DNA from: Oceanibacterium hippocampi
GTDB taxonomy: Bacteria > Pseudomonadota > Alphaproteobacteria > Sneathiellales > Sneathiellaceae
Direction: 5' to 3'
Length of the DNA: 64,000 nucleotides
Assembly (NCBI RefSeq): GCF_900172325.1
Contig: NZ_FWFR01000002.1
Coordinates: forward strand, 868,001 to 932,000
Each line of letters opens with the position of its first letter. Position 1 is the stretch's first letter. The position numbers and the translations under genes are program-made. This document shows, piece by piece, positions 7,218 through 60,548 of the stretch. The notes under the pieces were generated by a model. That model had not been told where the DNA came from. It saw only the letters and a program-made list of their open reading frames with translations, and searched no databases.

Positions 7218-8369
7218 ATGAGCGAACGTCCGATCACCCTGACCGATACAGGCGCAAGCGTCCCACTGGCGAACGGGCTCGCCTATTTCAACTATTGCTG
7301 GCTTCGCGACGCCTGCCCGAGCTGCATCGACGGCCAGACCCGCGAGCGCATCTTCGACGTCGCCTCCCTGCCCGGTCTACCCCGCGCCCGGGCGGCACGG
7401 ATCGAGGGCGAGGCGCTCGTGATCGACTGGCAGGCCGAAACGCAGGTCAGTCGCATCCCGCTGGACCTGCTGGAGACCTTTGCCACCCGGGGCCGGGCCG
7501 AGGATCCCGCCGACCTGCCGCGCCGGCTGTGGTATGCCGATCAGGCGCCGAGATTCACCCGCGTTCCGCAGGCGGCGGTGCTGAACGATCCGCATGCCAG
7601 GGCCCGGCTGACCCGCGCGCTCATCGAGGATGGCATCGCCATCGTTACCGACATGGCCGGCGACGGGGACAGCCTGCCCCGGCTGGTGCAGGCCATCGGC
7701 CCGATCACGCCGTCGGCAGAGGGGCTTTTCTTCGACGTCCGTGTCGAGCTCGCACCGACGAACCTCGCCTACACCGCTGGCCCGCTGGAGATGCATACCG
7801 ACCTGCCCGGCGAAGAGGCCGCGCCTGGCGTGCAATTCCTGCATTGTCTCGAAAACAGCGTGGAGGGCGGCCTGTCCCTGTTTCTTGACGGGGCCGCGGT
7901 GGCCGAGGCGTTGCACGAAGAGGACCCCGACGCCTTTCGCCTGCTGGCAGACAACAAGATTCCCTTCTTCTATCGCCACGACAACTGGGATTATCGCGCC
8001 TACCAGCGGGTGATCGAGACCGACCCCGAGGGCCGCGTGACCGGGGTGACGATCTCCCAGCACCTTCAGGACACGATGGACCTGCCGCAGGTCCTGCTCG
8101 ACAGCTATTACCCGGCTATCATCAGGTTCCTGAAGATGCTCCATGAGGACCGCTTCCTCGTGCGCTTCCGCTCCGAGGCGGGCAATTGCGTGATCTTCGA
8201 CAACCATCGCATCGTGCATGGCCGCGAAGGCTACGTCGCCGACAGCGGCAAACGCCACCTTCGCGGCTGCTACACCGACCGGGGGGCCCTGCGCAGCACC
8301 TATCGCGTGCTGGCAAAGCAGGGCTTTGACGGTGCGTGCGAGGAGATATCGCAGATGATACCGGCCTGA
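7218..8369 (+). CDS. Gamma-butyrobetaine/trimethyllysine dioxygenase-family 2OG oxygenase
   Basis: A 383-residue Fe(II)/2-oxoglutarate dioxygenase of the BBOX1/TMLH group. The N-terminal small domain shows YCWLRDACPSC with Cys27, Cys33 and Cys36. The mammalian enzymes bind zinc with three Cys and one His, so a partial zinc site is likely. The catalytic TauD fold contains the facial triad His193-x-Asp195 (MHTDLPG) and distal His334 (RIVHGREGY). Enzymes of this family hydroxylate trimethylammonium substrates on the carnitine route. The start ATG is at 7218, 22 bases after the aldolase stop and preceded by AAGCCGAGAG. Context with an aldolase and nearby aldehyde dehydrogenase fits a carnitine-like or choline-like substrate, but this is inference. 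Confidence 0.86.
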   Translation: MSERPITLTDTGASVPLANGLAYFNYCWLRDACPSCIDGQTRERIFDVASLPGLPRARAARIEGEALVIDWQAETQVSRIPLDLLETFATRGRAEDPADLPRRLWYADQAPRFTRVPQAAVLNDPHARARLTRALIEDGIAIVTDMAGDGDSLPRLVQAIGPITPSAEGLFFDVRVELAPTNLAYTAGPLEMHTDLPGEEAAPGVQFLHCLENSVEGGLSLFLDGAAVAEALHEEDPDAFRLLADNKIPFFYRHDNWDYRAYQRVIETDPEGRVTGVTISQHLQDTMDLPQVLLDSYYPAIIRFLKMLHEDRFLVRFRSEAGNCVIFDNHRIVHGREGYVADSGKRHLRGCYTDRGALRSTYRVLAKQGFDGACEEISQMIPA

Positions 8370-8464
8370 CCTCTCGCCACGAAAGCTGCGGCACAAGAGC
8401 CCGCGGAGACTCAAGCACGACACGCTCCGGACGGCGATCCGGGCGCTGCGAATGCCGGCCCCGA

Positions 8465-9316
8465 TCAGTCGATCAGCGAGTCGGCGCGCTGCCCGGCCCG
8501 TTCGTGATGGACTGGCAGCGTGCGTCCGTAAAGCTGGCGGGTGCGTTCGACGCTGCCGACCATGCCCGGTGCATCGACATATGAAAAGATCGCAACATAG
8601 CGGGGTGTCGGACCTTCCAGCGGCGCAACGCGGTGCAACGAATACCGCCCCTTGAACAACTGCAGATCGCCCGGCTGGAGTTCGAGCGAAACGACCCTGT
8701 CCGAGGTTCCGTCGAGGACCCTCGCAACATCCTCGAAGTGCTCGTCGAGGCTGTCACGGATCATCGGCGCATATTCGAACGTGCCGCCACGGTCGGCATT
8801 CTGCAGCGCCAGAGTGACGGTGAAATTGTTGGTGTCGAAATGCCAGGGAAATCCGTTGCCTTCGCCGGCGGCATTCACGATCACGTCCGCCAGCGGGTCA
8901 GCATAGCGGAAGAAGCGGTCTGGCGATTCCCGCAGGCACTCCCGGATGAAATCGTCGAAGCCATCGCAATCGAACACCGTTCGCAATGCGCCGGCGGGCC
9001 GGAAGTTGTCGGCCGGGACAAATGCGTTGGAGCGGTCGAAGAACCTCCGTCGCGGGTCGGATTCGGGAAGGCTGAAGTCTTCGGCGGTGAAATAGGCGTT
9101 GGTGCGGGAATAGCTGCGGTGCCCCTTGTCGGCGACGCCGTCGGCCTCGGCCACCGCGGCCGCGATACCGGCGGGTGTCAGGAAGCCCTTCAGCACCGCG
9201 CATCCCCGACGATCGAGCGCTTCACGGGCATCCGCAAGGATCGCGTCGCGGGCCGGCCCGGGTGTCGAGATCGGATAGGTCTCGAGATCGATCAGATCAT
9301 TGGCAAAGAGTTTCAT
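8465..9316 (-). CDS. Fe(II)/2-oxoglutarate-dependent hydroxylase (HalD/ArpA-like)
   Basis: A 283-residue non-haem iron oxygenase. The iron ligands read His159-x-Asp161 in WHFDTNNFTVTL and His228 in YSLHRVAP, with Arg239 as the likely 2-oxoglutarate anchor. The layout resembles the group that includes amino-acid radical halogenases such as BesD/HalD. Those halogenases replace the Asp with Gly; here the Asp is kept, so hydroxylation is expected. Start at ATG 9314-9316; an upstream in-frame extension to 9355 has no better start. It is the last gene of the minus-strand set GMC oxidoreductase, enolase-family protein, aldehyde dehydrogenase, oxygenase, and converges with the plus-strand dioxygenase gene. 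Confidence 0.8.
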   Translation of the reverse strand: MKLFANDLIDLETYPISTPGPARDAILADAREALDRRGCAVLKGFLTPAGIAAAVAEADGVADKGHRSYSRTNAYFTAEDFSLPESDPRRRFFDRSNAFVPADNFRPAGALRTVFDCDGFDDFIRECLRESPDRFFRYADPLADVIVNAAGEGNGFPWHFDTNNFTVTLALQNADRGGTFEYAPMIRDSLDEHFEDVARVLDGTSDRVVSLELQPGDLQLFKGRYSLHRVAPLEGPTPRYVAIFSYVDAPGMVGSVERTRQLYGRTLPVHHERAGQRADSLID

Positions 9317-22506: not shown

Positions 22507-23961
22507 ATGACCGATTCCCAGAGCTCTCCCTCACCGGCCGATATCCTGATACGAGACGCACTGATCGTCGATGGGACGGGCGCGCCCGCGCGCCTTGGAG
22601 ACCTGGCGATAAAGGATGATCGCATCCTCGCGATCGGAGAACTCGGCGACTGCGCTGCCGGACGGATAATCGACGCGCGGGGCCTGGTTCTCGCGCCGGG
22701 CTTCATCGATGTGCATACCCACGACGATCGCGCGGTGCTGGCTGATCCGCAGATGGCATGCAAGGTCAGCCAGGGTGTCACCACCGTCATCGTCGGCAAT
22801 TGCGGGATCAGCCTGTCGCCCCTGGTGTCATCCGGCCCGCCGCCCCCGCCTCTCGACCTCCTGTCACCAGACAGAAACGAGTTCTTCGACAGTTTCAGCA
22901 GTTATGCGGCTCGGCTGGAGGCCGACCCCGCCGCGGTCAATGTTGCGGCGCTAGTCGGACATTCAACGCTGCGGGTCGGCGTGATGGACGCTCTCGACCG
23001 AACCGCGAGCGGCAAGGAAATCGCGGCAATGCGCGGCCTCCTCGAAGAGGCGCTCGCATCGGGGGCGATCGGCCTCAGCACCGGTTTGTTCTACCCGACC
23101 GCGCGCGCGGCGGAGACCGAAGAGGTCATCGAACTGTCGAGGGCAATGGCCGGCGGGCAAGGTATCCACACGACCCATATGCGGGACGAGGCGGACGGTG
23201 TCGAGGAAGCGCTCGAGGAGACGTTCCTGATCGGACGGTCGGCCGAGGTCCCGGTGATCATCTCGCACCACAAGTGCATGGGGGCGAAGAACTATGGCCG
23301 GTCGCATGCGACGCTCGCTCGAATTGCCGCGGCCATGGGCCGACAGGACGTGGGGCTCGACGTCTACCCCTATTCCGCGGCGTCAACGATCCTCAACTCC
23401 GAACTGGTGGCGATGAGTGCGCGGGTCCTCGTTTCCTGGTCGACACCCCATCCGGAACTGGCCGGCAAGCCGCTGGACGAGATCGCGGCGGCATGGCAGG
23501 TCGATGTCGACGAAGCGATCGGGCGCCTCTCTCCCGCCGGCGGCATCTACTTCGTCATGGACGAAGCGGACGTGAAGCGGATCCTCGCATTCCCGAATAC
23601 GGTCGTCGGTTCGGACGGACTGCCGCACGATCGACACCCGCATCCCCGCCTGTGGGGCACCTTTCCGCGCGTGCTCGGACGCTACGTGCGTGAGGATGCT
23701 CTGCTGACGCTCGAGGATGCCGTGCGGAAGATGAGCGGACTGTCCGCCCGGTATTTCGGGCTCGAGGGACGCGGCGAGTTGAAAGCGGGGAATTACGCGG
23801 ATCTTGTATTGTTCGACCGCGATGAAGTGATCGATCTTGCGACCTTCGAGCGCCCGGACCGTCCCTCGGCCGGGATTCATCGGGTCATGGTGAACGGTCG
23901 CGAGGTCTGGAATCGGGGTGCCACGACAGGTGAACGTCCGGGCCGTTTGCTGGGTCGTTGA
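22507..23961 (+). CDS. N-acyl-D-amino-acid deacylase (D-aminoacylase)
   Basis: A 484-residue amidohydrolase-superfamily enzyme. The metal-site elements are HTHDD near residue 72, VGNCGIS with the family's bridging Cys, HHKCMG near 257 and GSDGLPHDRHPHPRL near 375. This set is characteristic of D-aminoacylases, which remove the acyl group from N-acyl-D-amino acids (D-Glu, D-Asp or broad-range D forms). It is the last gene of the TRAP operon. With the DSD1-type PLP enzyme across the GntR promoter it forms a coherent route: import, deacylation, then D-amino-acid cleavage or deamination. Confidence 0.9.
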   Translation: MTDSQSSPSPADILIRDALIVDGTGAPARLGDLAIKDDRILAIGELGDCAAGRIIDARGLVLAPGFIDVHTHDDRAVLADPQMACKVSQGVTTVIVGNCGISLSPLVSSGPPPPPLDLLSPDRNEFFDSFSSYAARLEADPAAVNVAALVGHSTLRVGVMDALDRTASGKEIAAMRGLLEEALASGAIGLSTGLFYPTARAAETEEVIELSRAMAGGQGIHTTHMRDEADGVEEALEETFLIGRSAEVPVIISHHKCMGAKNYGRSHATLARIAAAMGRQDVGLDVYPYSAASTILNSELVAMSARVLVSWSTPHPELAGKPLDEIAAAWQVDVDEAIGRLSPAGGIYFVMDEADVKRILAFPNTVVGSDGLPHDRHPHPRLWGTFPRVLGRYVREDALLTLEDAVRKMSGLSARYFGLEGRGELKAGNYADLVLFDRDEVIDLATFERPDRPSAGIHRVMVNGREVWNRGATTGERPGRLLGR

Positions 23962-24030: not shown

Positions 24031-25032
24031 TCAGAGGTCAATGACCAGAATGTCCGTCAGCGAGCGCGAGCAGCAGGGCGTGAAGCAGTCGTTCCGCGCC
24101 TTCTCCGCGTCCGAGAGCACGGTGTCCCGATGATCCGGCAGTCCCGCGCGCACGCCCGTGATGCAGGTTCCGCAGAAGCCCTGCTCGCAAGCCGTACTGA
24201 TGAAGATGCCCCGTCCCTGGAGGGCCTGCACGACGGTTTCCGAAGGACCGACCGGAACATCGATACCCGATTTCGCCAACGTTACGACGAAGCCCTTGGC
24301 GGTATCGGCCGGTCGGGCTGACGGGGCAACGGCGAAATACTCGCAGTGAAGGCGCCCTGCCGGCCAGGTGGCAGCCGCCGCCGCGGCTTCGACGGCCGCC
24401 ATGAACCCGGATGGTCCGCAGTAGTAGAGGTGCGCGCCCTCATTCGACTCGCCCTCGAAGAGAGCGCTGAAGTCGAGGCGCTGGTCGGGCGCGCCATCGT
24501 CCAGATGAAGATGGACGTGGTCGCGCAGGTCCTTCTCGCCGATCCGCGCGAGAAACGCCGTTCGTTCGATCGACCGCGTGCAGTAATGCAGGGCGAAATC
24601 GGTACCCTGGCGAAGCAGAACTTCCGCCATGCTCAACAGTGGCGTGATGCCGATCCCGCCCGCCACCAGAACATGTCGCGCGGCATCCGCGGCCAGTCGG
24701 AACTGGTTTCGCGGCCTGCTCACCTGGAGGATCCCGCCGGGCCGGACGGCTTCATGCATCGAACGCGAGCCGCCGCGCCCGTTACGATCCCACAACACAG
24801 CGATCCGATAGCGACTGGAATCCGCGGGATCGTTGAACAGGGAATATTGCCGCACCGCGCCGCCGGGGGTGAAAACGTCGACATGCGCGCCCGCCTCGAA
24901 TGTCGGCAGTGCTCCGCCGTTCGGGTCGACCAGCTCGATGGCGACGATATCCTCCGCTTCCCGCCGCACATCGGCGACGCGCAGCGAAAGCCGGGACGAG
25001 CCGGCAGCCTCGGTGAAAGTCTCCGCGTTCAT
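24031..25032 (-). CDS. VanB-type oxygenase reductase (FMN/NAD and [2Fe-2S] domains)
   Basis: A 333-residue single-chain reductase of the phthalate dioxygenase reductase/vanillate demethylase reductase class. Residues about 15-115 bind FMN (RQYSLFND at 61-68), about 115-230 bind NAD (VLVAGGIGITPLLSMAE), and the C-terminal plant-type ferredoxin has Cys282, Cys287, Cys290 and Cys320. It passes electrons from NAD(P)H to a Rieske oxygenase. The Rieske alpha/beta genes at 34789-36443 head the same predicted operon and lack any other reductase or ferredoxin, so this is their likely partner although 10 kb away. Its ATG overlaps the flavoprotein stop (ATGA). Confidence 0.9.
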   Translation of the reverse strand: MNAETFTEAAGSSRLSLRVADVRREAEDIVAIELVDPNGGALPTFEAGAHVDVFTPGGAVRQYSLFNDPADSSRYRIAVLWDRNGRGGSRSMHEAVRPGGILQVSRPRNQFRLAADAARHVLVAGGIGITPLLSMAEVLLRQGTDFALHYCTRSIERTAFLARIGEKDLRDHVHLHLDDGAPDQRLDFSALFEGESNEGAHLYYCGPSGFMAAVEAAAAAATWPAGRLHCEYFAVAPSARPADTAKGFVVTLAKSGIDVPVGPSETVVQALQGRGIFISTACEQGFCGTCITGVRAGLPDHRDTVLSDAEKARNDCFTPCCSRSLTDILVIDL

Positions 25033-26819
25033 CAGGCCGCCTCGTGGGAACCGGTCGCGGCGTCCGGACCGGCGTCGGCGGCGGGTCGATCGGCGGCAAC
25101 GGCTCCGGCGATGTCCAGTCCCGCGATATAGCCGAAGGTCATGGCGGGGCCGAGCGTGATGCCGGCCCCGGGATAGTTCCCGCCCATGATGCTCAGGGCA
25201 TCGTTGCCGACGGCATACACGCCCGGCAGCGGAGCCCCCTGCCGGTCCATCACGCGCGCGCGCGCATCCGTGCGGATCCCGGCGAACGTGCCAAGGTCCC
25301 CCATCACCAGACGCAACGCGTAATAGGGTCCCCTGGCGAGCGGCGCGACACAGTGATTGGGCCGGTGAGTCGCATCGCCCAGATAGCGGTTGTAAGCCGT
25401 GCTGCCCTTCCCGAAAGCGGGATCCTCGCCCTGCCCCGCGTGCAGATTGTAGGCTTCGACGGTGCGCACGAGGCTCTCCGGCGCGATCCCTGCCTTGCGC
25501 GCGAGCGCGTCCAGCGAGTCTGCACGCAGCAGGTAGCCGGACCGAAGATGCGGCCACAAAGGCAGCGGGAACGGCTTCGCAAAACCTAGCCCATAGCGAC
25601 GAATGGCACGGTGATCGCAGATCAGCCAGGCCTGCGGCGCCATGCCGTCGGTCGCGCAGTGGCGCTGCATGGCCTCTCCGAAGTCGTGATAGGAGTCGGC
25701 TTCGTTGACGAACCGCTCGCCCTTCGGGTTGACCGCGATTATGCCCGGCTTGTAGCGATCGATGAGATGCGGGAAGACATCCGGCGCCCCTTGTCTCCGC
25801 GGCACCAGGGAAACCGGGATCCACGCGCCGTTGTTGGGAAGCTCCGCACAGGTCTCCGCGCCGATACGCTCCGCGATCTGCCATCCGTCGCCCGTGTTGC
25901 CGGGCGGCGCCGGCGACCAGTGCTCCGCACCGGTCGGCGCGTGGCGGAAATTGCGGCGGCGAAGTTCGGTGCTTTGCGGAAATCCGCCGGTCGCCAGGAC
26001 GATGCGTTTCGTTCTCACCGTTTCGATCGTGCCGTTGCGGCGAACCCGCACAGAGTGCGTCTGCCCATCCTCCCGGACAATTTCCTCAAGTGCCGCCTCG
26101 GTCCGGATATCGACACCGGCGTCGAGGGCGCTGCGAAACAGCCGGGCAACGAGAGCATTGCCGTTCGTGATCCGTTGCGGCCGGCCGTATCGCAGCATCT
26201 CGCCGGCATGCTCGACCAGCCGACGCGCCACATAGGCTGCGGAGCGGACGGAGCGCGTGCAGTTGAAGAAATGGGCGACTTCCTGGCTCGCGTTGAACAT
26301 CATTCCGACAAAGGTCAACACGCGCAGCGGCGGACGCAGACGCCGTATCTCGCGGCCAAGATGCCGCGCATGATAGGGGGCCGCCAGAATGGCCCGTCCC
26401 TGCAGGCTGGCGCCGTCCGCGTTCGGGTGATAATCGGCGAAGCCCGGCAACGGCACGAAGCGCACCTCCGTCCGGCGCTCGAAGAATTCGACCATCGCAG
26501 CGCAATTCTCCAGGAAGGCGTCGACACGGGACGCGTCGAAGTGCGGGCCCGTCTGCCCCTCCAGGTAGCGGCGGGCCTCTTCCAGGGAATCGTCGATGCC
26601 GGCCGCCTTCAGGACTGGGTTGCAGGGCAACCAGAGCACGCCGCCCGATCGGGCCGTTGTGCCGCCGATGAACGCCTCCTTCTCGATCACCAGTACCCGC
26701 AGGCCGTTGACCGCGGCGGTCACGGCAGCGGCAAGGCCGCCCGCGCCGGATCCCGCGACCACCAGGTCATAATCGGCCTCAACGGGAGAAGGCCCGCCGT
26801 TTACCCGGTTCGCGCCCAT
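25032..26819 (-). CDS. FAD-dependent oxidoreductase (fumarate reductase/KSTD-like flavoprotein)
   Basis: A 595-residue flavoprotein with the dinucleotide motif VVAGSGAGGLAAAVTAA near residue 20, GGTTARSGGVLWLP near 52 and the C-terminal FAD signature GVYAVGNDALSIMGGNYPGA followed by GITLGPAMTFGYIAG. The family contains 3-ketosteroid dehydrogenases, fumarate reductase flavoproteins and tricarballylate dehydrogenase, which desaturate or reduce next to a carbonyl. I choose the ATG at 26817-26819 because GGGAGGG lies nine bases upstream; a GTG at 26825 is possible. It is 12 bases after the duplicated unknown gene and overlaps the reductase. It probably acts on a ring or enone intermediate of the Rieske pathway. 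Confidence 0.86.
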   Translation of the reverse strand: MGANRVNGGPSPVEADYDLVVAGSGAGGLAAAVTAAVNGLRVLVIEKEAFIGGTTARSGGVLWLPCNPVLKAAGIDDSLEEARRYLEGQTGPHFDASRVDAFLENCAAMVEFFERRTEVRFVPLPGFADYHPNADGASLQGRAILAAPYHARHLGREIRRLRPPLRVLTFVGMMFNASQEVAHFFNCTRSVRSAAYVARRLVEHAGEMLRYGRPQRITNGNALVARLFRSALDAGVDIRTEAALEEIVREDGQTHSVRVRRNGTIETVRTKRIVLATGGFPQSTELRRRNFRHAPTGAEHWSPAPPGNTGDGWQIAERIGAETCAELPNNGAWIPVSLVPRRQGAPDVFPHLIDRYKPGIIAVNPKGERFVNEADSYHDFGEAMQRHCATDGMAPQAWLICDHRAIRRYGLGFAKPFPLPLWPHLRSGYLLRADSLDALARKAGIAPESLVRTVEAYNLHAGQGEDPAFGKGSTAYNRYLGDATHRPNHCVAPLARGPYYALRLVMGDLGTFAGIRTDARARVMDRQGAPLPGVYAVGNDALSIMGGNYPGAGITLGPAMTFGYIAGLDIAGAVAADRPAADAGPDAATGSHEAA

Positions 26820-26837
26820 GTTCACAGCCCTCCCGGC

Positions 26838-27680
26838 TCAACCCAGAAGCAGAAATGCCGCTTCGCGGGCGCTCTGGCCGACGCGCACCCCCTTGGCTTT
26901 GGCGGTCTCGTTGGCAGCGCTGATCACGCCGTCGAAATAGGTGCTCTGGCCGTCGCCCATGCGGGCGGTCATGGCATCGACCGAAGCGCCGGCGATGCCG
27001 TCCGCATCGACGTCCTGCAGTGCCGAGATTCCGCTGTCGTTCTTGCCGATCCCGCCATCGGAGCAAATGAAGGCCCACGGCCGGAAGCGGCGGAAATAGT
27101 CGACGACACTGCGTCCGGTATGCCCCGCCGTGCACAGCACGTTCCGCTCGCGATCCTCCGGCAGGGCAAAGGCGATCGAATCCGTGCAGACAATACTGCG
27201 GCCGGTCTCGGCAGTATGAATGACCAGTCGCCGCGCCGGGTCGAATTCCGCCGGCGCGCGATCACCGGTGAGGGCGGCAGCCACCGCCTCCTGCACCGTG
27301 AGACCCGGCGCGAGACCCAGGCGTTGCGCCGCATCGTTGACCCTGCTCAGGACACCGCACCGGTACATGTCGCGGCCATTGCCCATCTCGGCAGTTCCGG
27401 AATCGACCGCGGCAGCCGGCACGCCGAGCGCCTCGTAGTACCAGAGCCCGGCCACACCCGCGCCGTCCTTGCCGATCCCGCAATCCAGTCCAATGGCGAC
27501 CTTCGGCTTCGCCGACATGACCATGCGGGCGCACAGGACGCCGGCGTACGAGGCGGCGACCACCACGTCACCGGAACACGGCGCATGGTCGACATAGGCT
27601 TCGACATGGGTGGCTGAATCGAAGACCAGCGTCCTGCCGGCGGCGTTATCGATAATGTCGGGGATATGCAACTCGGCCAT
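26838..27680 (-). CDS. Unrecognised protein with an internal duplication
   Basis: A 280-residue soluble protein whose family I do not recognise. It consists of two related halves. Residues about 15-132 and 160-277 align as GRTLVFDSATHV with GRSIVCTDSIAF, LDCGIGKDGAGVAGL with SDGGIGKNDSGISAL, and DSGTAEMGNGRDMY with DAMTARMGDGQSTY, each followed by a similar helix ending in QEA/REA. The GIGK and MGxG segments look like conserved active-site or binding loops. There is no signal peptide or membrane segment. It sits between a NIPSNAP gene and a flavoprotein in the Rieske operon, with GGAGG seven bases from its ATG. An enzymatic role in the pathway is likely but unassigned. Confidence 0.8.
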   Translation of the reverse strand: MAELHIPDIIDNAAGRTLVFDSATHVEAYVDHAPCSGDVVVAASYAGVLCARMVMSAKPKVAIGLDCGIGKDGAGVAGLWYYEALGVPAAAVDSGTAEMGNGRDMYRCGVLSRVNDAAQRLGLAPGLTVQEAVAAALTGDRAPAEFDPARRLVIHTAETGRSIVCTDSIAFALPEDRERNVLCTAGHTGRSVVDYFRRFRPWAFICSDGGIGKNDSGISALQDVDADGIAGASVDAMTARMGDGQSTYFDGVISAANETAKAKGVRVGQSAREAAFLLLG

Positions 27681-27704
27681 CGTGCCTCCAGAAAATTACT
27701 GTCG

Positions 27705-27799: not shown

Positions 27800-28126
27800 T
27801 CAGCGAATGGGCGAGAACGACGTCGGCACCAGGATGCGGTTCGTCATGCTGTCCAGCATCGGCAGGATCTGCCGGAGATAGTCCTGCCAGACCGGTTCCT
27901 CACGCAGCAACGCCCTTCGCCGCGCGCGATCGTCGAGGCTCTCGTAGCCCCACAGGTGTACGAGCGCGTTCAGTGGCCCGATCTCCGTCGTGAAGTAACC
28001 GAGCATGTTGCCGAGCACGCGCTTCTGCAACTCCATCGCGCCTGTCGATTGATAGATATCGAGGAACTGGGCCGGCGCGAATACCGGCTTTATCTGGTAG
28101 CATCGCTCCTCGATCAGCATGCTCAT
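27800..28126 (-). CDS. NIPSNAP-family protein
   Basis: A 108-residue ferredoxin-like alpha/beta-barrel protein: MLIEERCYQIKPVFAPAQFL, then GYFTTEIGPLNALVHLWGYESLDDRARRR. That is the bacterial NIPSNAP pattern, with a central strand followed by W-x-Y-x-S. Such small dimers often appear in catabolic operons as isomerase-like or binding helpers of unproven function. The ATG at 28124-28126 overlaps the cupin stop and has AAAGGA upstream. The next gene begins 119 bases downstream. Confidence 0.87.
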   Translation of the reverse strand: MSMLIEERCYQIKPVFAPAQFLDIYQSTGAMELQKRVLGNMLGYFTTEIGPLNALVHLWGYESLDDRARRRALLREEPVWQDYLRQILPMLDSMTNRILVPTSFSPIR

Positions 28127-28521
28127 GCCAGTTCCTTTCCGGCAAGCGCGCCGGTGAGAAACCGGTTCGGCTTCAGGAAGAAGGACAGCACTAGCGCCCC
28201 CTCGACCGAGCGGGCAACATGCCGGTTCCCCTTCGGGCGCCAGACGAAATCACCGGCGCGGACTTCGCCTTCCTCATCGACGATGCTGCCGGAGAGAACG
28301 AACGTCTGCTCGATCTCGACATGTTCATGCAGGTCGAGCGCGGTGCCCGGCTCCCAGCGGAAGAGCGCGGTCATCAGTCCGCTTTCGTCGTCCTTCAGAA
28401 GAATCTTCATGTCGATGCCGGGCGTCGGCGTCGGCTTCCACGGAAGCGCGTCGACGGCGACATACCTGGAATCCAGTTCCCCCAGTTGTTCGCTGCCCGG
28501 GAGGTGCGGTGTATGCGCCAC
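28123..28521 (-). CDS. Small cupin-domain protein
   Basis: A 132-residue single-cupin protein. Metal-binding residues are visible in LDLHEHVEIEQTFVLSG (His, His, Glu) and in PKGNRHVARSVEG (distal His). It resembles the ChrR-cupin/2,4'-dihydroxyacetophenone dioxygenase group, so it could be a small ring- or side-chain-cleaving oxygenase. A non-catalytic role cannot be ruled out. The start is GTG at 28519-28521 with AAGGAAGGAG upstream. It is 37 bases after the IclR gene and overlaps the NIPSNAP start. Confidence 0.85.
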   Translation of the reverse strand: MAHTPHLPGSEQLGELDSRYVAVDALPWKPTPTPGIDMKILLKDDESGLMTALFRWEPGTALDLHEHVEIEQTFVLSGSIVDEEGEVRAGDFVWRPKGNRHVARSVEGALVLSFFLKPNRFLTGALAGKELA

Positions 28522-28558: not shown

Positions 28559-29449
28559 TCAAGCGGCCGCGATACCCTTGTTGATTTCCTCGGCCATCCG
28601 TTTGGCCATCTCGACAAACGGCTCGAGATCGGAATCCTGATATTCCTTCTTGGTCAGAACGACGGTCAGGCTGCCCGCCACATCCCCGGCGGACCGGAAT
28701 ATCGGCGCGCTGATGCCGATCAGGTCCGGATCCAGTTCGCCGTAGGCAACGCAGACGCCCGCGTTCCGCACGGCCCGCATGTTGTCGCGAAACTCCTGCC
28801 AGTCCTCGCCCAGGCCGGCGGCGCGGATCTGTCGCGATTCATGCAGCATGATCGTGCGCAACTGATGCGGCGGCAGGTTGGCGAGAATCGCCTTGGACGG
28901 AGACCCCCGGAACAGCGGGAAGGGCTGACCCCGCTGCATGCTGAAATTGAACGACTGGTTGGTCGCCTCGTGATGGATGGTCATGACCTTGTCGCGGTAG
29001 TAGGTGCATAGCAACAGCAGGCCGTCGAAATGCTCCATTGCCCGCTGCATCACCGGCACGGCGGCACGGAGCATCGGATCGGAGAGGCGGGCCAGCCGAT
29101 CGAGTTCGATCACCCGGGGCCCGAGCACGAATCCACCGCCAACGGTTGGCGAAACCAGGCCGGAACTGCCAAGCGTCCGCAGATACCGGTAGAGCGTGGT
29201 TTTCGTCAGATTCAGCGCCGAGCCGATTTCTTCCGCGGTCCAGCTCGGCCGTTCGAGGCTGAACAGATCCAGCACCGCGAGCAGCCGGTCGTGACTGCTT
29301 TCGCGAGTCGACGATTTGGTGGCCGCGCCCGACTTCATGGCCCCGCCCGACGTCGGCTTTGCCCCCCGCGCGCGGGATGCGGTGCCGCCCGGCAAGGTCC
29401 CGGACGCCCGTGCCGTCTTGTTCGATTTCGCGTTCGATTTCGTGGCCAT
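28559..29449 (-). CDS. IclR-family transcriptional regulator
   Basis: A 296-residue regulator. The first 50 residues are a Lys/Ser/Gly-rich disordered tail. Residues about 52-110 are the IclR winged HTH (WTAEEIGSALNLTKTTLYRY) and about 120-290 the effector-binding GAF-like domain. It is encoded inside the operon, seven bases after the old-yellow-enzyme gene, rather than divergently. It therefore probably autoregulates the whole Rieske operon in response to a pathway compound. The palindrome around the -10 box at 36532-36550 is a candidate operator. Confidence 0.9.
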   Translation of the reverse strand: MATKSNAKSNKTARASGTLPGGTASRARGAKPTSGGAMKSGAATKSSTRESSHDRLLAVLDLFSLERPSWTAEEIGSALNLTKTTLYRYLRTLGSSGLVSPTVGGGFVLGPRVIELDRLARLSDPMLRAAVPVMQRAMEHFDGLLLLCTYYRDKVMTIHHEATNQSFNFSMQRGQPFPLFRGSPSKAILANLPPHQLRTIMLHESRQIRAAGLGEDWQEFRDNMRAVRNAGVCVAYGELDPDLIGISAPIFRSAGDVAGSLTVVLTKKEYQDSDLEPFVEMAKRMAEEINKGIAAA

Positions 29450-29456
29450 GCCGCCC

Positions 29457-30623
29457 TCACCCGCACGCAGACTGGGGGCTGGTGCTCTTCAAGGACTTCA
29501 TCAGCTTCTCGCGCCTGGAGAGATGGAATGCGTAGCTCATGCCGATGTCCGGAAAGATGTCATGTCCCAGTTCCTGGGCCGCACGCATCGGCCAGTTCGG
29601 GTTCCAGAGCGCCTCGCGACCGATGGCGATGAGATCGGCCTGACCGGCTCTGACGATCCCGTCGGCCTGAGCCGGCTCGTAGATGAGGCCGACGGCCATC
29701 GTCTGCACGGCGGCTTCGCGTCGGATTTTCTCGGCATAGGGAACCTGGTAGCCCGGAAATGCGCGAACCTTCGTGCCCAGCATGGCCGGCCGCAATAGTC
29801 CGCCCGACGAGCAATCGACGACATCGGCACCCGCCTTCGCGAGCTCCCTTGCGAACAGCACGGAATCCTCGAGATCCCAGCCGGTATCCTCCGCACCGTC
29901 GACCGCCGAGATCCGGACGAACAGCGGCAGACCGGCCGGCCAGACGCGCCGGACGCGCGACACGATCTCCAGCGGATATCGCATCCTGCCGGCGATATCC
30001 CCGCCGTAGGCGTCGCCGCGCAAATTGGTCACGGGAGAGAGGAACTGGTGCAGCAGATAGCCGTGCGCGCAATGGATCTCGGCGACCCGGAAGCCGGCCG
30101 CGGCAGCGCGCAGCGCCGCCTGTTCCCATTGTCCTGCAAGGCCTTCCAGTTCGGCCGCGGTCATCGCGTGCGGCGTGTGCCAGTGCGTGTCGACGGGGAC
30201 CGCGCTCGGCGCCATCACCTGCCATGACCGCTCGCCCCGCAGGTCGAGATCTTCCTGCAACAATGGCCCGTTGCCGTGCCAGGGCCGTTGCGCGCTGCCC
30301 TTGCGACCGGCATGCGACAACTGGATCCCGGGCACCGCCCCCTGGGCGCTGATGAAGTCGCAGATTCTCTTCAACCCCGGTACGTGATCGTCGCTCCAGA
30401 TACCGAGATCGCCATGAGAGATGCGGCCGTCGCGTGTCACGGCGGTCGCCTCGGTCATGACGAGCCCGGCGCCGCCTTGGGCAAACTTGCCGAGATGAAT
30501 CTCGTGCCAGTCATTCGCCATCCCCTCCGTCGCCACATACTGGCACATCGGCGAAATGACGATCCGGTTGCGCAGCTTCTGGTCGCGGAAAACGAAGGGG
30601 GAAAACAGGTGCCTGTCGTTCAT
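29457..30623 (-). CDS. NADH:flavin oxidoreductase, old yellow enzyme YqjM class
   Basis: A 388-residue FMN TIM-barrel enzyme. Cys27 in ISPMCQYV is the redox-tuning cysteine of the YqjM class. The substrate-anion pair His-x-x-His lies in EIHCAHGYLLHQFLSP, and VKVRAFPGYQVPYAEKIR and AIGREALWNP are also typical. It reduces activated C=C bonds of enones or related compounds with NAD(P)H. I prefer the ATG at 30621-30623 (MNDRHLFSPF) by comparison with the family; an ATG at 30647, five bases after the AldA stop, would add eight residues. Neither has a clear ribosome site, suggesting coupling to AldA translation. Confidence 0.88.
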   Translation of the reverse strand: MNDRHLFSPFVFRDQKLRNRIVISPMCQYVATEGMANDWHEIHLGKFAQGGAGLVMTEATAVTRDGRISHGDLGIWSDDHVPGLKRICDFISAQGAVPGIQLSHAGRKGSAQRPWHGNGPLLQEDLDLRGERSWQVMAPSAVPVDTHWHTPHAMTAAELEGLAGQWEQAALRAAAAGFRVAEIHCAHGYLLHQFLSPVTNLRGDAYGGDIAGRMRYPLEIVSRVRRVWPAGLPLFVRISAVDGAEDTGWDLEDSVLFARELAKAGADVVDCSSGGLLRPAMLGTKVRAFPGYQVPYAEKIRREAAVQTMAVGLIYEPAQADGIVRAGQADLIAIGREALWNPNWPMRAAQELGHDIFPDIGMSYAFHLSRREKLMKSLKSTSPQSACG

Positions 30624-30652
30624 TTGAATGATTTCAGCCGAATCCATGTCAA

Positions 30653-32089
30653 TTATTGCTGGAGATAGACAATGTGCTGAACCATGTTTTCGTACAACCC
30701 GTGCTTGCCATCCGCGCCGCCCAGGCCGGAATGCCGGATGCCCGCATGGAAGCCCTGCATCGCCTCGAAGTTCTCGCGGTTGATGTAGGTCTCGCCGAAG
30801 CGCAGCTCGTTGCAGGCCCGCAAGGCCGTGCTCAGGTCCCGCGTATAGATCGCCGATGTCAGGCCGTATTCGGAATCGTTGGCCCGATCGATCGCCTCAT
30901 CCAGCGTGTCGAAGGCGTTCACCGGCAGCACCGGGCCGAACACCTCCTTCTGCACGATCTCGGACGCCTGGTCGCAGCCGACCAGCACGGTGGGCTCGAA
31001 GTAGAACCCGCCGCCCCGCTCCACGGTCTTGCCGCCGACGACGATCTCGCTGCCGGACTTGCCGGCGCGCTCAACCATCCCCTCAACCTTGGCGGCCTGG
31101 ACGGCATTGATCAGCGGACCCATGTCGACGCCGGCTTCGGCAAGCGGGTCGCCGTAGGTCGACGCCTGCATCGCCTTCGCCAGCTTGTCGACGAACGCGT
31201 CATGAATCGAGCGATGCACATAGATCCGCTCGGGGCAGTTGCATGCCTGGCCCGCGTTCAGAAGGCGTCCGCCCTTGATCGACTGGACCGCAAGATCGAT
31301 GTCGGCATCGGCCATCACGATCGCCGGCGCCTTGCCGCCGAGTTCGAGATTGACCTTCGTGATGTTGCGGGCCGCAAGCGCCATAATCCGGGAACCGGTA
31401 TCGACGCTGCCGGTGAAGCTCAACATGCCGACGCCCGGATGGGACGACAAGGCCGCACCGGTCGAGGCGCCACGACCGTATACGAGGTTGAACACGCCCG
31501 CGGGCAGTTCGCATTCCATCGCGATCTGGACGAAGAGATCGGCGCTGACCGGCGTCTCCTCGCTCGGCTTGATGACCACGGTGTTCCCCGTGATCAAGGC
31601 CGGCGCGACTTTCCGCGCGAGCAGGAAGAACGGGAAGTTCCACGGCAGGATGCCGCCGACGACGCCGATCGGCTGCCGGAGCATCAGGATCGTCTCGCCT
31701 GGCCGGTCGCTGCTGATCACCTCGCCTTCGAGCCGGCGTGCCCACTCGGCCATGTAGTCGAAGTAATCCGCGGCGAAAGCCACCTCGCCCACGGCAAGGC
31801 CGAGCGGCTTGCCCTGCTCCCGCACCACTGTGCGGGCGATGAGGTCGGACTTCTCGCGGATCTTTGCGGCAATGGCCTTCAGGTAGCCGCCGCGCGCGAC
31901 CGCCGGAAGCTTCGCCCAGGGGCCCTGCGCGGCACCAGCGGCGGCGACCGCGGCCGCCACTTCCGCCTCACCGGAGTCCGGGATCGCGGAAAAGACGACG
32001 CCGGTCGCCGGATTGAGGACCTCGACCACGTCGGCCGACGCCGCATCGACATATCGGCCATCAATGAAATTCTTCAGAATCGTGTTCAT
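30653..32089 (-). CDS. aldA: Aldehyde dehydrogenase, AldA (lactaldehyde dehydrogenase) type
   Basis: A 478-residue ALDH that strongly resembles E. coli AldA along its whole length. Shared stretches include EVAFAADYFDYMAEWARR, GILPWNFPFFLLARK, LELGGKAPAIVMADADI with the general-base Glu, the catalytic Cys in NAGQACNCPERIYV, and FGETYINRENFEAMQGFHAG. AldA oxidises lactaldehyde and glycolaldehyde. A small hydroxy-aldehyde released by the Rieske pathway is therefore a reasonable substrate. Start ATG 32087-32089; it follows the ABC permease by 19 bases. Confidence 0.9.
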   Translation of the reverse strand: MNTILKNFIDGRYVDAASADVVEVLNPATGVVFSAIPDSGEAEVAAAVAAAGAAQGPWAKLPAVARGGYLKAIAAKIREKSDLIARTVVREQGKPLGLAVGEVAFAADYFDYMAEWARRLEGEVISSDRPGETILMLRQPIGVVGGILPWNFPFFLLARKVAPALITGNTVVIKPSEETPVSADLFVQIAMECELPAGVFNLVYGRGASTGAALSSHPGVGMLSFTGSVDTGSRIMALAARNITKVNLELGGKAPAIVMADADIDLAVQSIKGGRLLNAGQACNCPERIYVHRSIHDAFVDKLAKAMQASTYGDPLAEAGVDMGPLINAVQAAKVEGMVERAGKSGSEIVVGGKTVERGGGFYFEPTVLVGCDQASEIVQKEVFGPVLPVNAFDTLDEAIDRANDSEYGLTSAIYTRDLSTALRACNELRFGETYINRENFEAMQGFHAGIRHSGLGGADGKHGLYENMVQHIVYLQQ

Positions 32090-32108
32090 GAGACTCTTCC
32101 CGATAAGA

Positions 32109-32936
32109 CTAGCGCCAGCGGATAAGGCGCGATTCAAGTGCGGACATGCCGTAGGTCAGGCCGCTGCCAAGCAGCGCCAGCAGCAGCAGGACGGCGAACA
32201 CCCCGTCGATCTGGAAGGTGCCGGCAAGATAGCTCAGCTGCTGACCGAGGCCGTGCTGGGCGGCGATGATCTCGCCGGCGATGACGCCGAGAAGCGAGTA
32301 GATCAGGCCCAGGCGGAGACCGGAGAACAGGGTCGGTACGGCACTGACGAGCGTGATGCGCAGGAAGATCTTCGTGCGCGACGCGCCAAGCGTCCGGGCG
32401 AGCGTCAGGAAATCGCGATCGACACTGCGCGCGCCCGCGACCGTGCTGCTCAGCACGATGAAATAGGTCAGGCTGAAACCCAGCGCGATCTTGGAGCCGA
32501 TCCCGAGGCCGAACCAAAGCAGGAACAGCGGTGCCAGGGCGATTCGTGGCAGCGCGTTCAAGGCCGCGAAGAAAGGATCGCAGAACTTCTCGGTTGCCGG
32601 AAAGGAAACGAACAGAAGGCCTGTTGCGATGCCCGCGAGACTGCCGAGGCCGAAGGCGATGCCTGTCCCGGCCAGCGTCCACAACACGTCGCTGGCCAGG
32701 CTGCCCGTCACGAATAGCTCGGTGAAGAAGAACGACAGGATCCGCGACGGCGTGCCGATGAACAGCGGGTCGATGATCCTGTTCGCCGCGACATACTCCC
32801 AGAGAAGCCCGAACACGATCAACGTCAGCAGTTGCCAGGGCCAGATCGCCGAACCGATGCTGTTCCAGCGAAGCCGTTTCCCGGCATTCGCCGCGCTCCG
32901 TACTCGAACGGAGGGTTTTGCGATGGTCATGCTCAT
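32109..32936 (-). CDS. ABC transporter permease, NitT/TauT (SsuC-like) type
   Basis: A 275-residue inner-membrane protein with about six transmembrane segments and the family's cytoplasmic coupling motif near EIIAAQHGLGQQLSYLAGTF, preceded by ARTLGASRTKIFLRITL. It forms the membrane pore for import of small anionic compounds such as sulfonates, nitrate-like anions or aromatic acids. Its ATG overlaps the ATPase stop codon, and the binding-protein gene is encoded just upstream of the ATPase. Confidence 0.92.
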   Translation of the reverse strand: MSMTIAKPSVRVRSAANAGKRLRWNSIGSAIWPWQLLTLIVFGLLWEYVAANRIIDPLFIGTPSRILSFFFTELFVTGSLASDVLWTLAGTGIAFGLGSLAGIATGLLFVSFPATEKFCDPFFAALNALPRIALAPLFLLWFGLGIGSKIALGFSLTYFIVLSSTVAGARSVDRDFLTLARTLGASRTKIFLRITLVSAVPTLFSGLRLGLIYSLLGVIAGEIIAAQHGLGQQLSYLAGTFQIDGVFAVLLLLALLGSGLTYGMSALESRLIRWR

Positions 32937-34788: not shown

Positions 34789-35241
34789 CTAGATGGGCAT
34801 GTGAGATCCGGGGCCGAGCACCCGGGTATCGAGCATCACATCGCGCGCCAGAAGCCTTGGCTCGCCCTCCACAAAGGTGACCCTGTCGTGGAACTGACCG
34901 GTCGCGAAAAGGTGGGTTTCACCGTTCAGCGCCGTGTGGCTGACGATCAGCGAGCTCACCGCCGAGAAGCGGCCGTCGGCGTCCTCGTCCAGTGTGTAGA
35001 GCGTTGCGTGCCGGCGCATCTGGCCCTGCATCCGGACATGTTTCGGAACCGCCTCGAGCAAGCCCTTCAGCTCGTCCAGGCCGAGGTCCAGCCAGGTCAT
35101 TTCCTTGCCGATCTCCGGGCTGAAGCTTCGGATACGGTACTGGAAACCGTCGGCGCAGAGGGCCAGATAGTCGGCGAATTTCTCGTCGTCCATCGACAGG
35201 CAAGATTTCGCGACGAGCGTTCGGATCTGTTCGGCCTTCAT
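34789..35241 (-). CDS. Aromatic-ring-hydroxylating dioxygenase beta (small) subunit
   Basis: A 150-residue SnoaL/NTF2-like protein (MKAEQIRTLVAKSCLSMDDE, later RMQGQMRRHATLYTLDED) that matches the structural beta subunit of alpha3beta3 Rieske dioxygenases. It has no catalytic metal and stabilises the hexamer. The ATG at 35239-35241 overlaps the alpha-subunit stop (ATGA), so the two subunits are coupled. Confidence 0.88.
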   Translation of the reverse strand: MKAEQIRTLVAKSCLSMDDEKFADYLALCADGFQYRIRSFSPEIGKEMTWLDLGLDELKGLLEAVPKHVRMQGQMRRHATLYTLDEDADGRFSAVSSLIVSHTALNGETHLFATGQFHDRVTFVEGEPRLLARDVMLDTRVLGPGSHMPI

Positions 35242-36443
35242 TTGCCCGGGCCCTCCGCGCTGACGTTTCCCTTCGGATCGCCGGCCGGGCGCCCCATGTG
35301 ACGACTCCATTCGGCGTAATAGCCGCGCAAGGCGGCATCGTCGTGGGCGCCCAGGTTCTCGCGCCGCGAGATGATGCTGTACTGGGCGGCGTGGCGATTC
35401 CCCTGCTCCACCGACTCGATGAAGAAGCCGTCCTCCGGCTGGGTGCGGCCGAACGGGCCCCAGTACTGGTTATGATTGCGAATACGCTCCGCCCGCACCT
35501 CGGGCGTGTCGCTCTTCAGGCCGAGCCCGCGGAACTCCATCAGGGTCAGGGACGGACTGATCGGCGTCGACGTATCGATCCGCATCGCCGTGCCGCGGAT
35601 GATGATCGACGTGTTGGGAAACAGGTCGACGGCACGGATCTCGCCCGGGGCGAGGCCCGGGAAATTGTTCGAGTCCCGATCCTCCCAGCCGGGAATGTTC
35701 GAGTAACTCACCCGGTAGGGCGGCAGCGACAGATGTCCGTTCTTGCCAATGGAGATCCGGCGGTCGTGATACCCCGGTGAATTCAGGCCCTGCTGCCGAT
35801 TCACCACGTGACCCCACTCGTGATAGAGTTCCATGTTGGTCTCGTGCCACTGCTTCCAGTTCGCGCGGACCTTGAACGAGTGGTAGTGGAAGAGTTCCAG
35901 CGGCTCTGCGGTCAGGGCTTCGCGCAGGGTATCGAGCGAGTCGGCGAGGAAGGACTCGAGCGTCTCCGCATCGTCATCCAGGGTGATGAAGACCAGGCCG
36001 CAGTTCACTTCCGTACGGATCGAACGCAGTCCGCAGGCTTCCTTCTTCGGCCCCGCTTCCTCGTAGCCGATGTCGCGCGTCTGGTTCACGCAATTGCCGT
36101 AGGTATCGTAGGCCCAGAGATGGAAGAAGCAGACCATTCGGCGGGCATTGCCGCGCGGCGCCCGGACCAGTTCGGCCGAGCGGTGCGAACAGACGTTCAC
36201 GAAGGTCCGGATCCGGTTGTCCTCGCCCCGGATCACTACCAGCGGCAGACCGCAGAATGACAAGGTGCGGTAGTCGCCGACCTGCTCGACCTCGCTTTCG
36301 TGACAGGCGAATTTCCAGGTTTTCTCCAGCAGCAGACGCTGCTCGTCCCTGAAGATACCCTCGTCCCGATAGACTTCCGAACTGATGAAGTGATCGGCGG
36401 GAAGGTCGGGCACCCCGGCCCATTCCTTGGCATTGCGCGGCAT
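35238..36443 (-). CDS. Rieske aromatic-ring-hydroxylating oxygenase alpha subunit
   Basis: A 401-residue oxygenase. The Rieske [2Fe-2S] ligands are Cys85-x-His87 (NVCSHRSAE) and Cys105-x2-His108 (VCFFHLW). The mononuclear iron region reads ETNMELYHEWGHVVN with His208 and His212. The usual spacing in naphthalene-type enzymes is His-x4-His, so His-x3-His here is a subgroup feature or a deviation. The third ligand Asp/Glu is not certain. It should dihydroxylate or monooxygenate an aromatic or other ring substrate using electrons from the VanB-type reductase at the far end of the operon. The ATG at 36441-36443 is preceded by GAGGAAACG. It is the first gene of the 13-gene operon. Confidence 0.9.
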   Translation of the reverse strand: MPRNAKEWAGVPDLPADHFISSEVYRDEGIFRDEQRLLLEKTWKFACHESEVEQVGDYRTLSFCGLPLVVIRGEDNRIRTFVNVCSHRSAELVRAPRGNARRMVCFFHLWAYDTYGNCVNQTRDIGYEEAGPKKEACGLRSIRTEVNCGLVFITLDDDAETLESFLADSLDTLREALTAEPLELFHYHSFKVRANWKQWHETNMELYHEWGHVVNRQQGLNSPGYHDRRISIGKNGHLSLPPYRVSYSNIPGWEDRDSNNFPGLAPGEIRAVDLFPNTSIIIRGTAMRIDTSTPISPSLTLMEFRGLGLKSDTPEVRAERIRNHNQYWGPFGRTQPEDGFFIESVEQGNRHAAQYSIISRRENLGAHDDAALRGYYAEWSRHMGRPAGDPKGNVSAEGPGK

Positions 36444-36952
36444 TCGACGTTTCCTCACAGGGTTCTTTTCCGGGCGAGATACACAGACCTTCCGATCCGT
36501 GTTTCCTCGGCCAGCACGCCATATGATTGATAGTGCCACATTATAGCACTTTTTGATTTCGTCAATAGGCGGGATTTTGAATTTTCTTCGAACTACGACA
36601 GAATCGCGACCCGACTACCGACGGAAGCGCGATCGGGACCTGGACGCGTGCTCGGCACGCGCAACCGCCGCTCTGTTCGGCGAAAACGAACGTGATGGAG
36701 TCCATCGAACCGCGGGGTGAGACGAACCGCGACACCCTGTACCCTTGCCGGATACCCCTTCCCGTCCGCACACCGTCAGGTTGTCCGCGCACTGGAACCC
36801 TGAAGCGCCGGATGTCGTTCCCCTCGCAGGCTGCCTGCTGCTTTGCCGCGAATTGGCGCGCTCGTGCATCGACCGTCGCCAGGGGTCGCGCCCGTTCACC
36901 GGAGCAGTCGAGCAACCGCCTTCGACAGCGACGATCTCTGAAAGGACGCGAC
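36444..36952. promoter_or_regulatory. Divergent control region between Rieske operon and catalase
   Basis: Of these 509 bases, 36520-36600 are clearly AT-rich and hold the minus-strand promoter described at 36532-36568. The remaining 350 bases up to the catalase start are GC-rich. They contain an open frame continuous with catalase, but its translation (Arg/Pro/Ser-rich) is unlike any catalase N-terminus, so I treat it as non-coding. The catalase promoter is not obvious. Confidence 0.5.
36532..36568 (-). promoter_or_regulatory. Candidate Rieske-operon promoter with palindromic operator
   Basis: On the minus strand a perfect TATAAT (36540-36545) lies 97 bases before the first start codon. TTGACG is upstream, but with only 14 bases between the boxes. 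The -10 box is enclosed by an inverted repeat AGTGC (36532-36536) / GCACT (36546-36550), so a bound dimer would block RNA polymerase. The short spacer suggests the promoter needs an activator. The operon's own IclR regulator is the obvious candidate to bind here. Binding is inferred. Confidence 0.55.
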
Positions 36953-45176: not shown

Positions 45177-46346
45177 CTAGAGGGCCACGACATGTTGCTC
45201 GACAAAGGCCTCGTTGATCGTGACACCCAGGCCGGGCCGATCAGGAATCTCGATGTCCCCATCCCGGGCCTCGAACGTCTCGTGCGCCATGTCGTGCAGC
45301 AGCGGATTGGCGCCGAGGGAGAACTCCAGCAGCCAGCCGGCCGGCGAAGCCGCAGCGACGCTCATGCCGGCGGAAAAGGCCAGCGCGCCGGTCCACAGGT
45401 GCGGGGCAAGGCGCAGGTTCCACGCCGAGGCGATCGCACCGATGCGCATGGCCTCGCTGATCCCGCCGCAGATCGCCAGATCGGGCTGGAAGATATCGGC
45501 CGCCTGGAGAACCGCGAGATCGCGGAAATCGAAGCGCGTGAAATCACTCTCCCCGGTCGCGATCGGCACGGACGTGAGCGCCCGGATCTGCGCAAGCCCC
45601 GCCTTGTCGTCGGCGGTCACCGGTTCCTCGAACCAGAGGAGGCCGCAGTCTTCCACCAGGCGGCAGAAGCGCTTGGCCTCGGCCACCGAGAACGTGCCAT
45701 GCGCATCGCAGGCAATCCCGATATCCGGTCCAAGCGTCCTTCGAGCCGCCTGAACCCGGCGCGCCGATGCCTCCGGGCTGCCATCGATGACGCCAACCCG
45801 CATCTTCACTGCCGAGAAGCCGCCCTTCTCGACATAACCCGCCAATTGCGCGCCGATGCCGGCCTCATCGGCCCAGCCGCCCGAGGCATAGGCAGGCATG
45901 CGATCCGCCTTGCGGCCACCCAGCAACTGCCATACCGGCGCCTTCAGGTGCTTGCCGAGCAGGTCCCAGAGGGCCATGTCGATGCCGCTGATCGCGGCGA
46001 TGGAAACGCCTCGCCGGCCAAGCGCGGGGAATACCCGTCCGTGAGCGAGTGCGTAGTGCCCACGTGTGCCGTTATACATCAGCTCCCAGTGCCGATTGAT
46101 GTCGCAGGCGTCCTGCCCCACGAGCATCGGGCCATAGAGTTCGTTGATCGCGGTCACCAGCGTTGCGTGGTTGCCGGAACTGCCGACCACTTCCCTCGCC
46201 TCGCCCCAGCCGACAAGACCGGACCGCGTTTCGATACGCACCAGTGCACAGTCGAAGGAGCTGGCCTCTCCGAAATCGGAGACATGCCGTTTCTCCTTGG
46301 CGATCGGGACATGGATCCAACGAGCCTGGACGGATTTGATATGCAT
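45177..46346 (-). CDS. Enolase-superfamily acid-sugar dehydratase-like protein
   Basis: A 389-residue mandelate racemase/muconate lactonizing enzyme. The capping domain is followed by the Lys-x-Arg-type strand AVKMRVGVIDG. Metal ligands are Asp in ACDAHGTFSV, Glu in LWFEEPVTADD and Glu in IATGESDFTRFDF, and the barrel-end His is in LAPHLWTGALAF. Unlike the copy at 10828-12036 it keeps the full D-x-H motif, so dehydratase activity on a sugar acid is expected. The ATG at 46344-46346 has GAGGGA upstream. It lies between two aldehyde dehydrogenases in the MocR-linked operon. Confidence 0.88.
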   Translation of the reverse strand: MHIKSVQARWIHVPIAKEKRHVSDFGEASSFDCALVRIETRSGLVGWGEAREVVGSSGNHATLVTAINELYGPMLVGQDACDINRHWELMYNGTRGHYALAHGRVFPALGRRGVSIAAISGIDMALWDLLGKHLKAPVWQLLGGRKADRMPAYASGGWADEAGIGAQLAGYVEKGGFSAVKMRVGVIDGSPEASARRVQAARRTLGPDIGIACDAHGTFSVAEAKRFCRLVEDCGLLWFEEPVTADDKAGLAQIRALTSVPIATGESDFTRFDFRDLAVLQAADIFQPDLAICGGISEAMRIGAIASAWNLRLAPHLWTGALAFSAGMSVAAASPAGWLLEFSLGANPLLHDMAHETFEARDGDIEIPDRPGLGVTINEAFVEQHVVAL

Positions 46347-46354
46347 GTTTTCCC

Positions 46355-47851: not shown

Positions 47852-47897
47852 TCTGGAACCTCTCGAATGATTGCTGTTCCCGCCGACCGCGTGCGGC

Positions 47898-49601: not shown

Positions 49602-49628
49602 GTTTTTCTTCTCCGGGATTCTCGGGAT

Positions 49629-51236: not shown

Positions 51237-51240
51237 CGCG

Positions 51241-52053: not shown

Positions 52054-52077
52054 GAGTTTCACCTTTGACCCGTCTGC

Positions 52078-53049: not shown

Positions 53050-53058
53050 CGTTCAGCC

Positions 53059-54627: not shown

Positions 54628-54704
54628 CGCCGTACCCCCTGTCGCGTTTATCCGGTTTCCGTATCAGCCCGTGAAGCTAGACATTCAAGCGTTACGGTGA
54701 CAAG

Positions 54705-54719
54705 TTGCACTTTCTGCAA
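54705..54719. promoter_or_regulatory. Perfect palindrome between ABC operon and MocR gene
   Basis: TTGCA-CTTTC-TGCAA is a perfect 5-bp inverted repeat with a 5-base centre. It lies in the 110-bp divergent intergenic region, 19 bases before the MocR start codon. The size suits a winged-HTH dimer, so it is a good candidate operator for the MocR protein controlling both directions. Confidence 0.5.
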
Positions 54720-54737
54720 TATCGATGGGTACAGTTG

Positions 54738-56240: not shown

Positions 56241-56248
56241 CTCGAGGG

Positions 56249-56290
56249 ACGGCAGTAGTCGGCCGCAAACGCCGGCTCGATTGCTGCCGT
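56249..56290. terminator. Possible bidirectional terminator between convergent genes
   Basis: ACGGCAG / CTGCCGT (7 bp, perfect) encloses an inner stem CGGC / GCCG in the 143-bp gap between the convergent MocR and PaaK-like genes. It begins eight bases after the MocR stop and is followed by TAGAAAAG rather than a clean T-run. Convergent placement supports a terminator role. Confidence 0.4.
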
Positions 56291-56383
56291 TAGAAAAGGA
56301 GCGTGACTGGCCCCACGCCCCCTGAGAAACGAATTGCAAAGAAACCGCCGAAATGCGCGGCACAGCCCTACGCGCGTCCCGAA

Positions 56384-58514: not shown

Positions 58515-58528
58515 TCCGACAACCTTCT

Positions 58529-59839: not shown

Positions 59840-59884
59840 ATCGATCCAAACGTCCAACGAGTATCAGTGAGCAACGTCATCGCC

Positions 59885-60535: not shown

Positions 60536-60548
60536 TGATCCTATGCCC

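Follow-up and report, generated by a model that had tools for sequence, protein, structure and literature searches.

A duplicated form of a DUF1805-like domain encoded in a catabolic operon of Oceanibacterium hippocampi

Gene organization of the locus

The gene considered here lies in a 64,000-nucleotide stretch of the O. hippocampi genome (hereafter the window, meaning the whole stretch analysed), and its product appeared, in a first-pass annotation, to consist of two duplicated halves belonging to no known family. This raises the question of what kind of protein it is and what it does among the genes that surround it. The gene encodes 280 amino acids (Table 1) and is preceded by the strong ribosome site that had been claimed for it, with four bases between GGAGG and the ATG. 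Its embedding in a catabolic operon is borne out by the minus-strand gene run to which it belongs, i.e. genes for an aldehyde dehydrogenase, an ene reductase, an IclR-type regulator, a cupin, a NIPSNAP-domain protein, the two-halved protein, a flavoprotein, and a ferredoxin reductase, in this order. A gap of 12 bases separates the two-halved gene from the flavoprotein gene directly downstream. An SsuABC-like transporter is encoded farther upstream in the same run, preceded by the large subunit of a Rieske-type oxygenase (35238-36539, minus). On the strand opposite to the operon, a gene for an amidohydrolase related to D-aminoacylases (22507-23961, plus) adjoins class II aldolase and TRAP genes.

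Table 1. Coordinates of the two-halved protein gene, its parts and neighbours in the window, and of single-domain relatives at other loci
Feature	Position	Strand	Basis or remark
Gene for 280-aa two-halved protein	26838-27680 (including stop)	minus	ORF; start ATG
First half, residues 15-143	27252-27638	minus	Family alignment, motif table, half-half profile match
Second half, residues 158-280	26841-27209	minus	Alignment, motif table; half-2 model
Ribosome-binding site GGAGG	27685-27689	minus	Read in sequence
Ferredoxin-NAD reductase with 2Fe-2S domain	24031-25041	minus	Overlaps flavoprotein gene
FAD-dependent dehydrogenase (flavoprotein), 3-ketosteroid/4-oxocyclohexenecarboxylate dehydrogenase-related	25032-26825	minus	Directly downstream
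NIPSNAP-domain protein	27800-28126	minus	
ChrR-like cupin	28123-28521	minus	Overlaps NIPSNAP gene
IclR-type regulator	28559-29449	minus	
Old-yellow-enzyme-family ene reductase	29457-30647	minus	
Aldehyde dehydrogenase	30653-32137	minus	
Single-domain form	L059:1447-1851	minus	Complete motifs; adjoins cytochrome P450 gene
Single-domain form	L102:1504-1839	minus	Complete motifs

Internal repeat

Residues 38-132 and 180-274 align without gaps, with 32 of 95 positions identical and a score of 134, whereas shuffling the second half 10,000 times yielded a mean score of 30.4 (s.d. 5.3) and a maximum of 80. When profiles of the two halves were built from 53 relatives, they matched each other across 119 columns (E=3.3e-45). 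A chance repeat is excluded by these two results. The ordered motifs that had been described at an offset of 142-145 residues are all present at the positions claimed, i.e. GR at residues 15 and 160, GIGK at 68 and 210, MGNG and MGDG at 99 and 241, and QEA and REA at 130 and 272, in the first and second halves, respectively. The repeat is genuine and is common to the whole family.

Distribution of the family

The closest relatives (71-81% identical) were found in Variovorax, Xenophilus, Paraburkholderia xenovorans LB400, and some metagenome-assembled genomes, followed by those on Rhodococcus megaplasmids (48%) and those in Aminobacter, Rhizobium, Ponticoccus, Methylovirgula, and haloarchaeal plasmids (31-36%), the haloarchaea being sampled through plasmids only. 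The orthologue in P. xenovorans LB400 occupies positions 7986-8828 of locus L040. Within the class to which the window belongs, 31 of 289 sampled genomes carry a member, with an identity of about 30-40%. The family thus spans proteobacteria, actinobacteria, and haloarchaea and occurs in roughly one-tenth of the sampled genomes of this class. In the tree, the clade of the window protein, together with the Rhodococcus and Aminobacter members and those at loci L003, L004, and L006, is split from a main branch (support 0.998).

No relative of the window protein was found in IMG/VR contigs. No Pfam model claims the family when the window protein and 40 members are searched, and no usable NCBIfam match was obtained. 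The first-pass statement that the protein belongs to no known family is therefore true of curated membership in Pfam and NCBIfam, although a sub-threshold resemblance to DUF1805 exists, and no confident match to a family of known function turned up.

A second copy, 34% identical to the window protein, is present in the same genome at positions 54974-55711 of contig 11. It lies in a cluster (about 46000-64000; locus L061) with genes for E1alpha, E1beta, the TRAP components DctP and DctM, an acetolactate-synthase-like enzyme, and an IclR-type regulator. Many genomes of the class contain clusters arranged in a similar way, which would encode a putative pathway.

Predicted structure and resemblance to DUF1805

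The whole protein was modelled using AlphaFold2 with an alignment of 15 sequences (pLDDT 82, pTM 0.64), and the second half was modelled alone with an alignment of both halves of all close relatives (pLDDT 91.7, pTM 0.88). Strands and helices are predicted to alternate within each half and to follow the same order in both. This repeated order would fit the pseudo-twofold fold that had been proposed, the pTM of the whole model being 0.64.

Thermoplasma acidophilum TA1206 (PDB 1qw2), a member of DUF1805 (PF08827), was the only structure to stand out in both searches, with Z scores of 8.2 over 80 residues for the whole model (next best 4.9) and 8.1 over 89 of 102 residues for the second half (next best 5.0), values of about 8 being within the range that this aligner gives for models without relatives and that can arise by chance. 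Foldseek yielded no match below E 0.001 for either model, TA1206 being at E 0.67 with the second half. Sequence searches of the PDB gave no match for the single window protein and, with the family profile, nothing beyond fragments of Y-family polymerases, DepH, and one flavoenzyme (best E 0.037); no match was found among BFVD viral models.

DUF1805 was also the commonest Pfam match among family members, being found in 32 of 40 at E values up to 1 (best 3.6e-8), and the first half of one member matches positions 10-64 of the model. The window protein itself scores 22.1 bits (E 1.9e-4), below the gathering cut-off of 29.5, with a best stretch of 23 residues. When the family was compared by hhalign with four DUF1805 sequences plus one fragment, the match was weak, with a probability of 3%. 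A query that we take to be the sequence of Bacillus subtilis YunC, another DUF1805 protein, matched PF08827 at 1e-26 and had 1qw2 as its only relative in the PDB.

The predicted strand-helix order of each half of the window protein is like that of DUF1805, and the closing helix motif (lGi..Gms..eAl) is common to both. In contrast, the DUF1805 proteins examined consist of one domain of about 100 aa, whereas the window protein has two domains in 280 aa; the GSHGG and SARIGD motifs of the window family are missing from the aligned DUF1805 sequences; and the DUF1805 proteins examined came from Bacillota and Methanosarcina, in contexts other than those of the window family. The sequence and structure lines agree, but each is borderline alone, and the window protein is therefore named DUF1805-like rather than a DUF1805 member. 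The protein is a new duplicated form of a DUF1805-like domain.

An unlikely alternative is that the two-halved fold has no relation to DUF1805, the likeness reflecting a shared small beta-alpha-beta unit also seen in Y-family polymerases. Such a reading would accommodate the borderline Z scores and the short span over which the window protein matches DUF1805, as well as the matches of the IMS palm model (PF00817) to 29 of 40 members (best 6e-9), which fall in the same stretch of the window protein. However, TA1206 aligns over 89 of 102 residues and scores 3 Z units higher than any other structure, whereas the polymerases align over only about 46-60 residues, and the match of one member's first half to DUF1805 covers 55 model positions. 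The polymerase likeness, seen in both sequence and structure, is confined to a fragment (228-280) with the motif G-V-I-S/A-x-x-N-x-x-A-r-x-x-G-v-x-x-G-m, and the window protein has neither the catalytic domain nor the size or context of a polymerase; its IMS match (29 residues, 17.8 bits) is below the cut-off of 23.2. The IMS-like stretch (26841-27000, minus) may represent homology or convergence.

Conserved residues

Conserved residues in the first half are D21, S44-Y45, D66-C-G, T96-A-E98-M-G-N101, D104, G109, S112, and N115, and those in the second half are D167-S168, G186-H187, D208-G-G, T238-A-R240-M-G-D243, S246, G251, S254, and N257. Across 53 members, very distant ones included, H187, D208, and N257 are conserved at 98-100% and R240 at 91%. 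According to DSSP assignments of the models, the conserved residues of each half are located in loops directly after strands, with [GA]-S-H after one strand, D-A-G-x-G after the next, S-A-R-I-G-D after the third, and S-x-x-N after the fourth; such loops usually house the active site in a fold of this kind.

The motif set is nearly unchanged in both halves of main-branch members. In the close clade of the window protein, by contrast, the first half has S-Y, D-C-G/A, and T-A-E-M-G-N and the second half has G-H, D-G-G, and T-A-R-M-G-D, with rare exceptions, and Aminobacter shows a similar S-Y/A-H pattern. Thus, the first half of the window protein keeps S44 and D66 while Y45 and E98 replace H and R, and the second half has lost the serine (G186) and keeps H187, D208, and R240. 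Judged from these replacements, the two putative sites of this clade have decayed complementarily, each half losing the residue of the S-H pair that the other keeps. This pattern suggests that one working site probably remains, located either in the second half or, as a composite, between the halves.

A serine hydrolase is a very improbable alternative. In that case, the turn formed by GSHGG behind the first strand would serve as a nucleophile elbow, in the manner of alpha/beta hydrolases. Weak similarity to UPF0227 in 7 of 40 members (best E 0.006) and to Abhydrolase_6 in 2 of 40 points in that direction, but GxSxG is absent (the window protein has ASYAG and AGHTG, and other members have GSHGG), the second half of the window protein has no serine at this position, and the top structure matches include no alpha/beta hydrolase.

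Gene neighbourhoods of relatives

Neighbouring genes were labelled at the family level only, by tblastn with named or Pfam-tested proteins. The neighbourhoods of homologues are largely catabolic, and the pathways vary. Among the close relatives, a cupin gene whose product is 72-80% identical accompanies the family member in 13 of 14 loci, and flavoprotein, NIPSNAP, and IclR genes are each present in 6 of 14; other loci of the window clade have amidohydrolase and CoA-transferase genes instead. Rhodococcus loci contain genes for acyl-CoA enzymes, an OB-fold protein, and SDRs.

In the main branch, thiamine-diphosphate enzymes are encoded at 21 of the 31 loci for which wider flanks were examined. 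At 18 of these loci, genes for both E1alpha and E1beta, which are of the 2-oxoacid dehydrogenase type (identified by Pfam), lie within 9 kb, and three further loci have only an acetolactate-synthase-like enzyme. With about five E1alpha genes per genome, approximately 2% of loci would be expected to show this by chance, and P for the association is about 8e-23 when loci are taken as independent, an assumption that is not entirely valid. Several main-branch loci are accompanied by TRAP transporter genes. No recognised catabolic neighbour was found at a minority of the family's loci (e.g. that of Ponticoccus, L066, and L068).

The haloarchaeal loci and locus L079 encode a RuBisCO-like protein and a DUF1537 kinase, and most also encode a PGDH_C protein. 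Sugar-acid pathways of the D-apionate type that combine these three proteins were reportedly described by Carter and colleagues in 2018, as cited in PMC6302742. The clusters on haloarchaeal plasmids (L051, L052, and L054) and at L079 resemble such pathways and house these relatives of the window protein, whereas none of the pathway enzymes is encoded in the window's operon. TRAP transporter and HpcH-type aldolase genes are also present in the three haloarchaeal clusters. The papers searched yielded no role for the two-halved family in D-apionate-type pathways. A lactonase role is unlikely at L079, where an SMP-30 lactonase-like gene adjoins the family member.

Possible function

The analysis yielded neither a substrate nor an activity or cofactor for any family member or for DUF1805, and the papers searched on DUF1805, YunC, TA1206, and 3-oxo-isoapionate provided no function. 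The common thread of the clusters would be a carbonyl-bearing intermediate that is handled by enzymes with their own cofactors. Since the window protein has no recognised cofactor motif, an acid-base step, e.g. isomerisation or hydrolysis, would be its most likely role, and in the window pathway it would act together with the cupin, a ketone desaturase, and the ene reductase. We consider the chances to be about even that it is a soluble enzyme without bound cofactor that performs acid-base chemistry on a carbonyl (keto or alpha-ketol) intermediate. The neighbouring chemistries are too different to name one reaction.

The first-pass annotation had left the choice between an enzyme and a binding protein. 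Of the two, an enzyme is the likelier. A non-catalytic partner of ligand-binding, chaperone-like, or regulatory type that serves different catabolic enzymes would explain the siting beside varied pathways, the neighbours ranging from thiamine-diphosphate enzymes to RuBisCO-like proteins and flavoproteins, and would be consistent with the motif residues that differ between the halves in the window clade. We nevertheless regard it as rather unlikely, because the near-invariance of H187, D208, and N257 and the high conservation of R240 at strand ends are typical of catalysis.

A fuller form of the enzymatic reading can be proposed only tentatively: the protein would represent a new family derived from a duplicated DUF1805-like domain and would catalyse an unrecognised alpha-ketol or beta-keto step, with the two ancestral sites merged in the window branch into a single asymmetric one by complementary loss. 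Such a step would be common to thiamine-diphosphate, RuBisCO-like, and alicyclic-ketone pathways. The libraries used contain no curated name for the family, yet its cluster partners are recognisable and provide concrete candidate substrates. These would also offer a first functional clue to DUF1805, whose structure is solved but whose function is unknown.

Single-domain relatives and duplication

Two genomes of another class (G513 and G633) encode single-domain homologues, 134 and about 130 aa long, in which the motif set is complete. In the preferred reading, the window protein arose when a small alpha/beta domain, most like DUF1805, was duplicated in tandem and fused. The occurrence of single-domain and fused forms, combined with the uneven decay of the sites, would make this family a clean case of the passage from a homodimer to a pseudo-twofold enzyme. 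In the tree of halves, the node that bears on one versus two duplications has a support of 0.46. The single-domain forms group beside the N-terminal halves of the main branch (0.987), a position suggesting that they may be either ancestral or secondarily shortened.
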